Source: Acidobacteriaceae bacterium (lineage in GTDB: Bacteria; Acidobacteriota; Terriglobia; Terriglobales; Acidobacteriaceae). From it: a stretch of 64,000 nt of DNA. Each line of letters starts with the position of its first letter. The first letter of the stretch is position 1. The stretch is from the NCBI GenBank assembly GCA_025462735.1, contig JAOAPC010000022.1:62001-126000 (forward strand), written 5' to 3'. This document shows positions 29,072-50,170 of the stretch, in pieces. Both the position numbers and the translations under genes were made by a program. The notes below the pieces were generated by a model. The model ran no database searches. It was given only the letters and a program-made list of their open reading frames with translations, and had not been told where the DNA came from.

Positions 29072-29541
29072 AGTTATTAAGGCCGCCGTGAAGGACGCAA
29101 ATACTTAGTCTGTCAAGCATATCCCGGTGCGGCTTACAACTTTAATGACGGAAGGTCAGCATCTGGTAGCCACTGGCCAACCGGGGTGTCCTAAACAACA
29201 CGAGTGTCTCAACTATGAATCGATGAATATCCGGCTTAGCATCCTTAGGCTATGTCGAACGAATGTAGCGACGTGCGTCCCCGTCCGTCCTTGCTTGAAT
29301 GCACATATTCTGCGAACCACAGACCGTGTGGGTCGGCCTGCCCTGAGCCAAGTCGAAGGGACATTCTTGTCCGACGATTTTGATCCTGTCGGACGCAACC
29401 GTGGTAGAGCGGCCATTCATGGCCGCGCTCGATCGACAACTCGAAGAAGCGAGCTTGCTCGAAAAGGGAAGTCGGGCCGAGTTATACTCCACGCGAAAAG
29501 ATAGGCCGCCCGCCTGATGTATTTTGAAGGGGAGAGTCTCC
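29072..29541. repeat. 470-base intergenic region with a nested repeat
   Basis: No gene is credible. At 29326-29375 the GTGTGGGTCGG...ACATTCTTGTCCGAC repeat is interrupted by a 24-base insert that begins CCTGCCCTGAGCCAAGTCGA. The uninterrupted repeat occurs at 21913 and 22356. The rest shows nothing recognisable apart from the Shine-Dalgarno of the antiporter gene. Confidence 0.65.
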
Positions 29542-34827: not shown

Positions 34828-35078
34828 CGCCAGGGGCGACTTGTGACTGCGTGGCTCGGACATTCCCTTCTGCTGCGCTCATGGCAAGCTCTGTCCGACG
34901 ATTCTGGTTTTGCCTGATCTACCACAGACGAGGGTGCCCCACTTCTCGGTGGTTTTGCGAGAAAGCCTGCCCTGAGCGAAGTCGAAGGGTGGGAACCACA
35001 ATCAGAAGAACATTTATGATGCGGACGCTCTCGTCCGCCAAACCATTCTGTCGGACAGGAGCCGACCCACACGGCGAT
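34828..35078. repeat. Intergenic repeat block
   Basis: Holds a GTGCCCCACTTCTCG...GCGAGAA...GGTGGGAACC palindrome (34932-34994) interrupted by the microelement CCTGCCCTGAGCGAAGTCGA (34968-34987). It also has a reversed TCGGACA...CCGACCCACAC repeat (35043-35073). The uninterrupted palindrome is at 35570-35610. Confidence 0.65.
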
Positions 35079-45461: not shown

Positions 45462-47210
45462 GTGGATAACAAATCCATCGCCGGGATCCTTTACGAAACC
45501 GCCGACCTGCTGGAAGTGGATGGTCAGGATTCGTTTCGTATCCGCTCTTATCGCAATGCGGCGGAAGCCATAGAAGCGCTCCCACAACAGATTACCGACC
45601 TGATCGAAGATCCCAAGCAGGTGCTGGCCATTCCGGGCATCGGCAAAGGCATGCTCCACAACTTAAACGAAATGTTGCACGAGGGACGGCTGTCGCTGCA
45701 TGCGGAGATGCTGAAAAAATACCGGCCGTCGATGCTCGATCTGCTTAAGGTGCAGGGACTTGGGCCGAAGACGGTTGCATTGATCTGGAGCGCGTACCAG
45801 GTTTGCGATCTGGAGGGAGTGGAGCAATTAGCGCGGGAGGGCAAAATTCGCGAACTGCCGCGCATGGGAGAGAAGCATGAGCAGAAGCTGCTGAAGGCGA
45901 TTGAAGATTATCGCAGGATTGCCGGGCGGTTTTTGCTCAGTGTGGCAGAGATACAAGCGGAGAAAATCGCTGAACATTTGAAGGATTATCCAGGTGTTGA
46001 AAGGGCAATTCCGGCCGGGTCGCTTCGGCGAGGACGAGAGACGGTTAGCGATCTCGACATTCTGGTCACGGGGCCGGCATGCGGTGATGATGGGGAACGC
46101 GAAAAGCTGATTGAGCACATCATCAAGCTTCCGGGACTGATGGAGATCATTGCGCGGGGCGAAAACAAAGTGAGTTTCCGTTTGCGCGGGGGAATGCAGG
46201 TTGACGTGCGATTTCTTCCGCCCGAGTCATTCGGTGCGGCGATGCAGTATTTCACCGGATCGAAGGGGCACAATGTTGCGCTGCGGCAACGGGCGCTGAA
46301 GCTGGGCTATACGCTGAACGAATACAGCCTAGCCAAGCTGGATGATCAGCAAGTAGTGGCTGGAAAATCGGAAGAAGAAATTTATGCGGCGCTCAAGTTG
46401 GACTACATTCCTCCGGAGATGCGGGAGAATTGTGGCGAGATCGATGCCGCGGAGAAACATGCGTTGCCGCGGTTAGTCACGGAAAAAGACCTGCAGGGCG
46501 ACGTGCATATGCACACCATCGAGACCGACGGGCGAAACACGATCGTGGAGATGGCGGAAGCGGCCCGCGAACGCGGGTACAAGTACATGGCCATCACTGA
46601 CCATTCGAAGAACCTGGCTTTCGCGAACGGCCTGGACGATGTTCGCGCGGTTGAACACATTCGGCGAATTCGGACGACTGGAGAAAAGATCGAAGGCATC
46701 CGGATTTTTGCCGGGATTGAAGTGGATATTCTGGCCGATGGCTCGCTGGATCTTTCCGACTCAGTGCTGGAACAGATGGATCTGGTGATCGCCAGCGTGC
46801 ACTCCCACTTCAATCAAACAGCGGAAGAAATGACGACACGATTGCTGAAGACGATTGAGAACCCTAATGTTTCGATTATTGGGCATCCGACCGGCCGAAT
46901 TCTGTTGCGACGCGATGCTTATGCATATGACATGGATGCGGTGCTGCAGGCTGCCGCTCGAAATAAGGTCGCAATGGAGTTGAATGCTTATCCGGACCGG
47001 CTTGATCTTTGCGACCGGCACCTCAGAATGGCGAAGCAGCACGGAGTGAAGATCGTGATCAACACCGACTCCCACCACACCTCGCACATGGAGAAGATCC
47101 GCTATGGAGTGCTGCAAGCGAGGCGGGCGTGGCTTACGGCGGAGGATGTGCTGAATACATTGCCGGTGGATCGATTCGCTAAGGCGATGAAACACGACTG
47201 GCCAGAGTGA
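45462..47210 (+). CDS. polX: DNA polymerase X with PHP domain
   Basis: A 582-residue family X DNA polymerase with a C-terminal PHP phosphoesterase, acting in base-excision-type repair. The N-terminal HhH region (LAIPGIGKGMLHNLNEML, GLGPKTVALIW) binds DNA. The nucleotidyltransferase motif GSLRRGRETVSDLDILV and a later DVRF supply catalytic Asp residues. The PHP part shows DVHMHTIETDGRNT, ITDHSKN, HPTGRILLRRD and NTDSHHTSHM metal ligands. GTG start; length agrees with bacterial PolX. Confidence 0.95.
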   Translation: MDNKSIAGILYETADLLEVDGQDSFRIRSYRNAAEAIEALPQQITDLIEDPKQVLAIPGIGKGMLHNLNEMLHEGRLSLHAEMLKKYRPSMLDLLKVQGLGPKTVALIWSAYQVCDLEGVEQLAREGKIRELPRMGEKHEQKLLKAIEDYRRIAGRFLLSVAEIQAEKIAEHLKDYPGVERAIPAGSLRRGRETVSDLDILVTGPACGDDGEREKLIEHIIKLPGLMEIIARGENKVSFRLRGGMQVDVRFLPPESFGAAMQYFTGSKGHNVALRQRALKLGYTLNEYSLAKLDDQQVVAGKSEEEIYAALKLDYIPPEMRENCGEIDAAEKHALPRLVTEKDLQGDVHMHTIETDGRNTIVEMAEAARERGYKYMAITDHSKNLAFANGLDDVRAVEHIRRIRTTGEKIEGIRIFAGIEVDILADGSLDLSDSVLEQMDLVIASVHSHFNQTAEEMTTRLLKTIENPNVSIIGHPTGRILLRRDAYAYDMDAVLQAAARNKVAMELNAYPDRLDLCDRHLRMAKQHGVKIVINTDSHHTSHMEKIRYGVLQARRAWLTAEDVLNTLPVDRFAKAMKHDWPE

Positions 47211-47422
47211 TGGCGGACGTGGACGCCGCTATACTCGACTTCATTCTTTTTGTCTTCCCACCGTTCGACCTCGCTCAGGGCAGGCTTTCTCGCACAGAAC
47301 CCGAGAAATGGGGCACCCTCGTTGTGGCGACTCATAGAAACGTCAAGAGCGTCGGAGAAGAATGTCCGACCCACACGGACTACTGGATTCAGCGAGTACA
47401 ATTCCCTGAGCAGGAGGACACC
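47211..47422. repeat. Intergenic repeat block downstream of polX
   Basis: Contains the palindrome CCCACC...TTTCTCGC...GAGAAATGGGGCACC interrupted by the microelement GTTCGACCTCGCTCAGGGCA (47264-47286). A reversed AGAATGTCCGACCCACACGG repeat follows (47358-47379). Confidence 0.65.
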
Positions 47423-48055
47423 ATGTCGAGTCCAACCCCTACGCCTCCACCGGGTCCGGAATCATCAGTCGCAAATCAGCAGACCCAAACCCAGCAGCAA
47501 GCCCAAGCTCAGCAGACCGGTCCGAATCAGCAAACCGATTTCGACATTGGTGAGGAATACGGAACCGCACGCAAGAATCTTCCTCCGGCCGGAATCGTGG
47601 CTATCTGCATTGCGGTCGTGTTGGTGATCGCGGCTGCTTATTCTCTGACGCACCGGGCACACGCGCTCTCGTCAGGATCGATCGACGAGGTGGTGCCACT
47701 GGCCATGCCGGGACAAGATATGGTGATGGTCGCGATTAATGTCACCGTGCAGAATAATTCCGACAAGCCTTCCTGGATACACACTATTCAGGCCTCGCTG
47801 GATACTGGGAGCAATAAATTGACCGACGAAGCGGCCCCGGCTGTGGACGCGCAGCGATATTTTCAGGCATTCCCCGATCTCAAGCAGCACGCTCTTCCCA
47901 TCCTGACGACGGAAACAAGATTGAATCCCGGAGACAAGACCTCGGGCACGGTTGTTGTCAGTTTTCCGGTGACGGCCGAGGCCTTTGCCGCGCGCAAATC
48001 TCTGAGCGTGACTGTTGCGCCGTACAACGAGCTGCCGGTGGTCATCACGAAGTAG
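47423..48055 (+). CDS. Hypothetical membrane-anchored protein with Gln/Pro-rich N terminus
   Basis: A 210-residue protein. The cytoplasmic N terminus is low complexity (Pro-rich then NQQTQTQQQAQAQQTGPNQQ). One membrane helix follows (GIVAICIAVVLVIAAAYSL), then an external beta-rich domain with MVMVAINVTVQNNSDKPSWI, similar in style to FxLYD-type domains. ATG 47423 has AGGAGG upstream. The frame's earlier region (from 47207) is repeat DNA and is not taken as coding. Confidence 0.65.
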   Translation: MSSPTPTPPPGPESSVANQQTQTQQQAQAQQTGPNQQTDFDIGEEYGTARKNLPPAGIVAICIAVVLVIAAAYSLTHRAHALSSGSIDEVVPLAMPGQDMVMVAINVTVQNNSDKPSWIHTIQASLDTGSNKLTDEAAPAVDAQRYFQAFPDLKQHALPILTTETRLNPGDKTSGTVVVSFPVTAEAFAARKSLSVTVAPYNELPVVITK

Positions 48056-49309: not shown

Positions 49310-50170
49310 ATGCTCTCTTCAACGCTCGACATACTTGCTATCGCCGCGCACCGCGATGATGTTGAACAGACCTGCGGCGGCACGCTGCTGAAAATGGCTG
49401 GGCTTGGACATCGGACCGGTATTCTTGATCTGACGCGCGGCGAGATGGGCACAAGAGGAACTGCCGAGGATCGCGCGCGTGAGGCGGCGGAGGCCGCGAG
49501 AATCCTGCAAGTTTCCTGGCGCGAGGCGCTGAATATTCCTGACGGTCGTGTTGAGAACACGTGGGAGAATCGTCTGAAGGTGGCGCGGGCGATTCGCCTA
49601 ACTCGGCCGCGGGTGGTGATACTTCCCTACTGGGAGGGACGGCATCCGGACCATTACACGGCGTCGAAGCTTGGGTACGAGGCGTGTTTTCTGGCGGGCC
49701 TGGCGAAATTAGCCATCAGCCCCTTCGACTCCACTCAGGGCAGGCGTGAGCCATCAGCCGTCAGCTCAGAAGAGTCGGATTTCAGGAAAGTGGCGTCGGC
49801 GGTGGCGAGCGTTGTGGCTGGAGAAAAACAACACGATCGCGAGTCACACGCGGGCGAGGCGCCCGCGCCACACCGACCTTTCAAAATTATTTATGCGACT
49901 GTGTATTACGACATTCGTCCGACATTCGTAGTTGATATCAGCGAGCAGTTTGAAGCGCGCTTCGAATCGCTGATGGCTTATAAGTCGCAATTCAGCGATC
50001 AGGAAGCCGGCAAAGATCTCTTCCCTGCCCGCGTCGAAATCCGAGCCCGCATCGAAGCCATGGCTCGTTACTACGGAATGCTGGCAGGCGTGACTTACGC
50101 AGAGCCGTTTCTGCAGAAGGAAGTCGGACTGGCGGAGGATGTGACGGCAATTCCGGTGAAGTCGATTTGA
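49310..50170 (+). CDS. bshB1: BshB1-like N-acetylglucosaminyl-malate deacetylase with repeat-derived insertion
   Basis: LmbE/PIG-L-family zinc deacetylase for bacillithiol synthesis. The motif AHRDDVE (usually AHPDDxE) lies near residues 13-19, and LPYWEGRHPDHY and YATVYYDIRPTFVVDISEQF match the BshB1 subgroup. Between LAGLAKL and PHRPFKIIYATVYYD there is an insert of about 50 residues (ISPFDSTQGRREPSAVSSEE...). Its DNA contains the microelement CCTTCGACTCCACTCAGGGC (49722-49741) and the palindrome shared with the ABC exporter, so it is a repeat captured in frame. The insert sits in a loop region and the flanking core is intact. Confidence 0.82.
   Translation: MLSSTLDILAIAAHRDDVEQTCGGTLLKMAGLGHRTGILDLTRGEMGTRGTAEDRAREAAEAARILQVSWREALNIPDGRVENTWENRLKVARAIRLTRPRVVILPYWEGRHPDHYTASKLGYEACFLAGLAKLAISPFDSTQGRREPSAVSSEESDFRKVASAVASVVAGEKQHDRESHAGEAPAPHRPFKIIYATVYYDIRPTFVVDISEQFEARFESLMAYKSQFSDQEAGKDLFPARVEIRARIEAMARYYGMLAGVTYAEPFLQKEVGLAEDVTAIPVKSI
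49720..49870. repeat. Repeat DNA inserted in frame within bshB1
   Basis: AGCCATCAGC occurs at both sides of the microelement (about 49712 and 49750). A GCGGGCGAGGCGCCCGCG palindrome lies at 49845-49862. The stretch codes through without a stop. Confidence 0.65.

Follow-up and report, generated by a model that had tools for sequence, protein, structure and literature searches.

The window analysed here is a stretch of 64,000 nucleotides from the draft genome of an Acidobacteriaceae bacterium (GCA_025462735.1, contig JAOAPC010000022.1). It contains bshB1 (49310..50170, + strand), which encodes a predicted bacillithiol biosynthesis deacetylase of 286 amino acids with an expanded linker. The product was matched by PF02585 and by TIGR04001, the NCBIfam equivalog model for BshB1 (6.1e-68; 228.9 bits against a cut-off of 182.5), and the best fold matches of its model were Thermus TT1542 and BshB of Bacillus subtilis. 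Because the same genome also encodes BshA (TIGR03999, 562.3 bits) and BshC (TIGR03998, 473.1 bits), both over their cut-offs, the bacillithiol pathway name is reasonable for this open reading frame. Based on these sequence matches, it was assigned as a BshB1-type bacillithiol deacetylase, the enzyme activity being predicted. The zinc motif of BshB1 is AxHPDD. The first metal motif of the acidobacterial proteins (window positions 49310-49360) was AAHRDD in 132 of 132 unique sequences, and the second motif, RHPDH, was also found. At the place of the first motif, the solved structures have HPDD (APHPDD) in the Thermus homologue and HSDD (AHSDD) or HADD (AHADD) in the Bacillus ones; since accepted BshB1 structures also differ there, the proline is not a strict requirement.

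The N-core and C-core of the enzyme are bounded by AGLAKL and HRPFKI, between which lies a hypervariable linker of 53 codons (49712..49870, + strand). A first-pass annotation made from the letters alone had placed an insert at 49712-49875; its start was retained and its end was corrected to 49870. All features of the linker are given on the + strand. A TCAGC-type repeat array (AGCCATCAGCC ... AGCCATCAGCCGTCAGC, 49711..49766) is split by a 24-bp microelement, CCCTTCGACTCCACTCAGGGCAGG (49721..49744), translated as PFDSTQGR, with direct copies of AGCCATCAGCC on both sides of it at 49711-49721 and 49749-49759. These are followed by a segment conserved in the clade, SDFRKVASAVASVVAGEKQ (49775..49831), for which a helix is predicted with low confidence, and by a GC palindrome repeat, GCGGGCGAGGCGCCCGCGCCACAC with its edges (49845..49878, core at 49851-49865), translated as AGEAPAPH. 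RNA folding gave -4.4 kcal/mol for the microelement and -14.5 kcal/mol over 24 nt for the palindrome unit.

Pattern searches of the genome to which the window belongs returned 40 matches for the microelement (TTCGACNNNNCTCAGGNCAGG, up to 1 mismatch) and 17 exact core copies of the palindrome (CGGGCGAGNCGCCCG), compared with 1 and 0, respectively, for the backwards controls. The microelement, repeat pair and palindrome named in the first-pass annotation are confirmed as components of the insert. The letters of the microelement were not mentioned in the published literature that was searched. When the linker was compared with its own genome by blastn (181-base query, E<=10), 47 other matches were obtained, all of them on query positions 17-70 or 146-179, which correspond to the microelement, the TCAGC-type array and the GC palindrome; positions 71-145 had no second copy in that genome at this threshold. 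About half of the 53-residue linker is dispersed repeat DNA, and the proposal that the whole insert, or all of its roughly 50 extra residues, is repeat-encoded was rejected, the middle of the linker having no other copy.

The segment SDFRKVASAVASVVAGEKQ recurs in slightly altered form in the nearest relatives (L032, L033, L016 and L003). Its variable columns over 19 codons in five sequences were distributed 4/4/18 among codon positions 1/2/3, and pairwise dN/dS was 0.084-0.11 where computable. Because it is single-copy, is found in close relatives and changes chiefly at third positions, it is not repeat junk; the 19-residue segment is conserved and constrained in the clade, and the linker is thus not wholly free. 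In an AlphaFold2 model (mean pLDDT 84.8), the linker runs between helix 113-128 and strand 192-196, with mean pLDDT values of 47-61 for the blocks between residues 141 and 180 and about 57-61 for a predicted helix at 155-169. The model supports the position of the insert on a loop, for which structure prediction had been proposed as a check; the loop is of low confidence and the helix at 155-169 is uncertain. These results bear on the possibility that the linker is functional and built from repeats as raw material, with one part now serving in this genus as a domesticated, selected helix, for instance in assembly or with a partner protein. The conservation of SDFRKVASAVASVVAGEKQ in five genomes, its excess of third-position changes and low dN/dS, and the modelled helix all point in that direction, but the pLDDT of the helix is low, 19 codons are a short stretch, many family members manage with loops of 6 residues, and no constraint like that on SDFRKVASAVASVVAGEKQ was seen for the microelement or palindrome parts. 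Domestication of this kind is considered rather unlikely.

Among 298 genomes sampled from the order, 245 had a match at 1e-30. A scan of named genomes gave 507 loci, of which the best 80 were retained; with 60 further regions, one of them included in error, 171 loci were examined in total, of which 168 had both cores and three did not (L002 and L161 gave no match, and L194 ends at a contig end). The two-core loci comprised 132 unique sequences; the sample leans to close relatives, since the named loci (80) and the initial 30 loci of the G series were best matches. Linker length in the 132 unique relatives ranged from 6 to 85 residues (median 22.5), with about 6 in early branches and 53 in the gene of the window. 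No stop codons were found in these linkers and all were in frame, allowing for L027, the sole out-of-frame case, in which the break is an assembly gap of N and the real loop has 6 residues. In an alignment of 61 of these sequences, almost every indel of the protein fell in the linker: 117 of 119 columns there were gapped versus 1 of 222 elsewhere. Turnover was evident between close relatives: the sisters L087 and L109 differ in their linkers with core DNA that is 94-96% identical, and the bshB1 gene of the sister L032 lacks the microelement and shares the palindrome. Comparison of relatives, as the first-pass annotation had suggested, thus revealed different inserts at the same place, and homologues from diverse phyla carrying the same insert were not seen among those compared: in the Thermus and Bacillus structures, the two BshB1 cores are nearly adjacent, with no insert. 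The interpretation of the insert as a conserved enzyme domain was ruled out by this absence, by the 6-residue loops of early branches, and by short gaps at this place in another family within the order.

Selection on the core was estimated from pairwise dN/dS, which was 0.019-0.059 against L032, L033, L016 and L003 where computable (one C-core pair was saturated) and 0.055-0.106 against the more distant L079 and L021; core dS was near or past saturation in most pairs, so these ratios are rough and their direction is clear. The BshB1 core is under strong purifying selection. Together with the model score, this upholds the earlier reading of an open frame with an intact enzyme core. A frameshifted or dead bshB1 gene was ruled out by the low core dN/dS and the in-frame linker. 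Misassembly or a pseudogene was also considered, given that the genome is a draft in 24 contigs and that many of the relatives are metagenome bins; against this, comparable independent inserts occur in frame in many separate assemblies, the core dN/dS is low and the sole frame break is the run of N in L027, and such an origin is very improbable.

The linkers of at least 40 nt were compared with 746 kb of DNA, within which 33 of 106 matched non-bshB1 DNA (18 at three or more loci) and the other 73 had no match to dispersed DNA. Size-matched controls gave matches for 7 of 106 N-core pieces and 0 of 106 C-core pieces, none at three or more loci. A named repeat family was recognized by consensus in 32 of 132 linkers, at least one of which (family Y in L063) is probably a chance match. 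The microelement was present in 25 of 28 genomes, element G in 28 of 28, and element D (AGRPQDSRQDAGAT) in 15 of 28 with up to 84 copies per genome, all controls being zero; the pattern search for element D gave no match in the genome of the window. Within bshB1, the microelement was found in 3 of 132 sequences and in three frames, as PFDSTQGR (the window), PSTTLRAS (L067) and, in reverse, PALSLSKG (L016). Element D has one frame and one orientation in all 11 linkers that carry it, a uniformity for which vertical descent with losses, or selection on the peptide, would account as readily as repeated capture. By eye, a reverse-oriented palindrome was seen in L033 close to the microelement site of the window; it was absent from the output of the consensus scan. 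A quick tree of 131 rows had many weak forks, and parsimony cannot separate gain from loss on it; the fewest changes were 3, 2, 11, 3 and 14 for families M, P, D, G and T, present in 3, 3, 11, 4 and 16 rows, respectively.

Copies elsewhere in the genome were represented by 45 loci: of the 39 remaining microelement matches 29 were examined, together with all 16 remaining palindrome matches. Fifteen of the 45 are embedded by 40 residues or more in open stretches that are 180 residues or longer; these stretches run from stop to stop, so that in L126, L155 and L156 the element may fall outside the protein proper or its domain. Ten of the 15 open stretches were compared with Pfam and 8 gave a match; in five, domains flank or surround the element, namely those of UvrD, ATP-dependent DNA ligase, DegT aminotransferase, E2 acyltransferase and an S9 peptidase. 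In DegT, the insert falls where the solved perosamine synthetase 3bn1 has an 18-residue gap, and the UvrD element is within some 110 residues that have no counterpart in PcrA. In-frame capture of dispersed repeats, proposed in the first-pass annotation for one gene, is supported and recurs both in this loop across the family and in other genes of this genome. Three of the in-gene microelements (L122, L126 and L140) are in DNA repair or recombination genes, encoding UvrD, a RecA-like protein and an ATP-dependent DNA ligase. Further microelement copies in the window were located at 29337-29360 (-), 34966-34989 (-) and 47261-47284 (+), the last within the first portion of ORF 47207-48055, for which the true start may be downstream. 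In this genome, microelement copies (L120, L124, L135, L140 and L141, near position 1501) often lie centrally within other palindromic repeats, GGACATTC/TTGTCC and the GC palindrome among them, as would be expected if hairpins were targeted.

Empty sites were sought by removing 21-28 bp around each microelement (24-25 bp fits best), joining the flanks and searching with the result. At a loose threshold, some match was obtained for 29 of 30 copies, in many cases a weak one or a self-match; plausible empty versions were accepted by eye, with no control set, for 9 of 30 (L112, L113, L115, L120, L129, L130, L134, L136 and L139). L115 is the gene of the window, and its emptied site matches bshB1 of L096, which has a similar TCAGC-type array without the microelement, at 88% over 49 bp. 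Local slippage or recombination in repeat-rich DNA (TCAGC arrays and palindromes), as opposed to insertion of mobile units, would account for the tandem-like array, for the direct copies flanking the microelement, and for the deletions and length changes that are common between sisters. It is nonetheless an unlikely source of the linker repeats, the same 24-bp unit being found in unrelated surroundings with matching empty sites and, within bshB1, in three frames and both orientations.

A possible mover was sought among the Y1 transposases, of which 12 genes (Y1_Tnp) scored over the cut-off in the genome of the window. The microelement lies within 1 kb of 3 of the 12 (naive binomial tail 0.0022, with uniform placement assumed), and the palindrome and element G are each near 1 of 12, neither of which is notable. 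The three genes, with microelements 206-680 bp away, are L222 (G000:C17:41527-41859), G000:C23:65016-65306 and G000:C7:159416-159592. That the elements are REP-like units moved by these RAYT/TIRYT-type transposases would supply the mover behind insertion and is not an alternative to it. Besides the proximity, which is a lead for movement and not proof, the mid-palindrome position of several copies and the tyrosine transposases reported for Koribacter and other Acidobacteria (PMC3733652) speak for this. Weighed against them, 9 of the 12 genes have no microelement within 1 kb, the expectation assumes uniform placement only, and no end structures or GTAG tag were identified; GTAG is not present in the microelement, and palindrome copies often read ACGGGCGAGACGCCCGTC. 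The proposal is a tentative one.

The explanation that we favor, with good confidence, is that a tolerant loop of BshB1 has captured short mobile repeats again and again, with selection filtering the outcome. The loop, which lies beyond the helix following the RHPDH motif, would tolerate changes in length and, in this acidobacterial family, would have grown from about 6 residues into a longer linker that took repeated hits from short dispersed repeats. In the gene of the window, the TCAGC-type array and the conserved helix-like segment would be old, the palindrome being common to the sister lineage, and the 24-bp microelement would have arrived last, into the TCAGC array. Selection on the enzyme would remove insertions that shift the frame or create stops, so that only open in-frame products survive; a 24-bp unit would be easily tolerated, as the microelement is open in five of six frames. 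On this explanation, the elements presumably move as units and the added peptide is presumably neutral for the enzyme. Several observations weigh against it: the constraint on the 19-residue segment, the uniform frame and orientation of element D, the 73 of 106 linkers with no match in the 746 kb compared, the failure of parsimony to separate gain from loss, and the reliance on empty sites accepted by eye with no control set.

Rickettsia palindromic elements (RPE) were reportedly described by Ogata et al. in 2000. RPE are in-frame repeats in Rickettsia protein genes, and a rickettsial guanylate kinase with an RPE insert is reported to stay active (PMC2229807, PMC10969869 and PMC3767692 for the former; PMC2229807 for the latter). 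As with RPE, dispersed repeats are found here in frame inside unrelated conserved genes (BshB1, UvrD, DNA ligase, DegT, E2 and S9 peptidase). Unlike RPE, which by definition are palindromes of 100-150 bp with terminal inverted repeats and which measure about 105-150 bp in their intracellular hosts, the units here are 24 bp and about 20-50 bp, belong to several families, and occur in a soil acidobacterium in which one loop is hit by different families in different lineages. GTAG/CGTC REPs are likewise reported in coding regions of several bacteria, many in replication and repair genes (PMC3733652), and Y1-type transposases in Acidobacteria (PMC3733652, PMC6006769). The short coding-region repeats in UvrD, DNA ligase and the RecA-like gene are similar, but the microelement shows weak palindromic character at most and lacks GTAG. 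At the extended RPE-4 loci of Rickettsia japonica, one solvent-exposed gene site carries different repeat groups by species, as it does here by lineage; one ancestral insertion is the origin preferred by the authors there (PMC3767692), whereas the frames and orientations of the microelement differ between lineages. No description of inserts in acidobacterial BshB1 was found in the titles and abstracts retrieved from the open-access PMC literature.

On the favored explanation, the phenomenon is a known one, that of Rickettsia RPE or intragenic REPs, in a soil acidobacterium, and what is unusual is the single-loop hotspot and possibly a domesticated segment. It is an improbable but further-reaching proposal that this single loop permanently serves to trap short mobile repeats of several unrelated families and that in one genus the partly repeat-derived linker is now a selected helix; if true, a new protein segment would have been born from nested repeats, with several stages visible among living relatives. 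The best-known cases of in-frame repeat capture come from Rickettsia and Wolbachia, where an intracellular life in small populations makes cause and effect hard to separate. Here the phylum is free-living and represented by hundreds of genomes, and a single replaceable loop, several repeat families and empty alleles among relatives would make the insertion rate, survival and any use of such repeats measurable.
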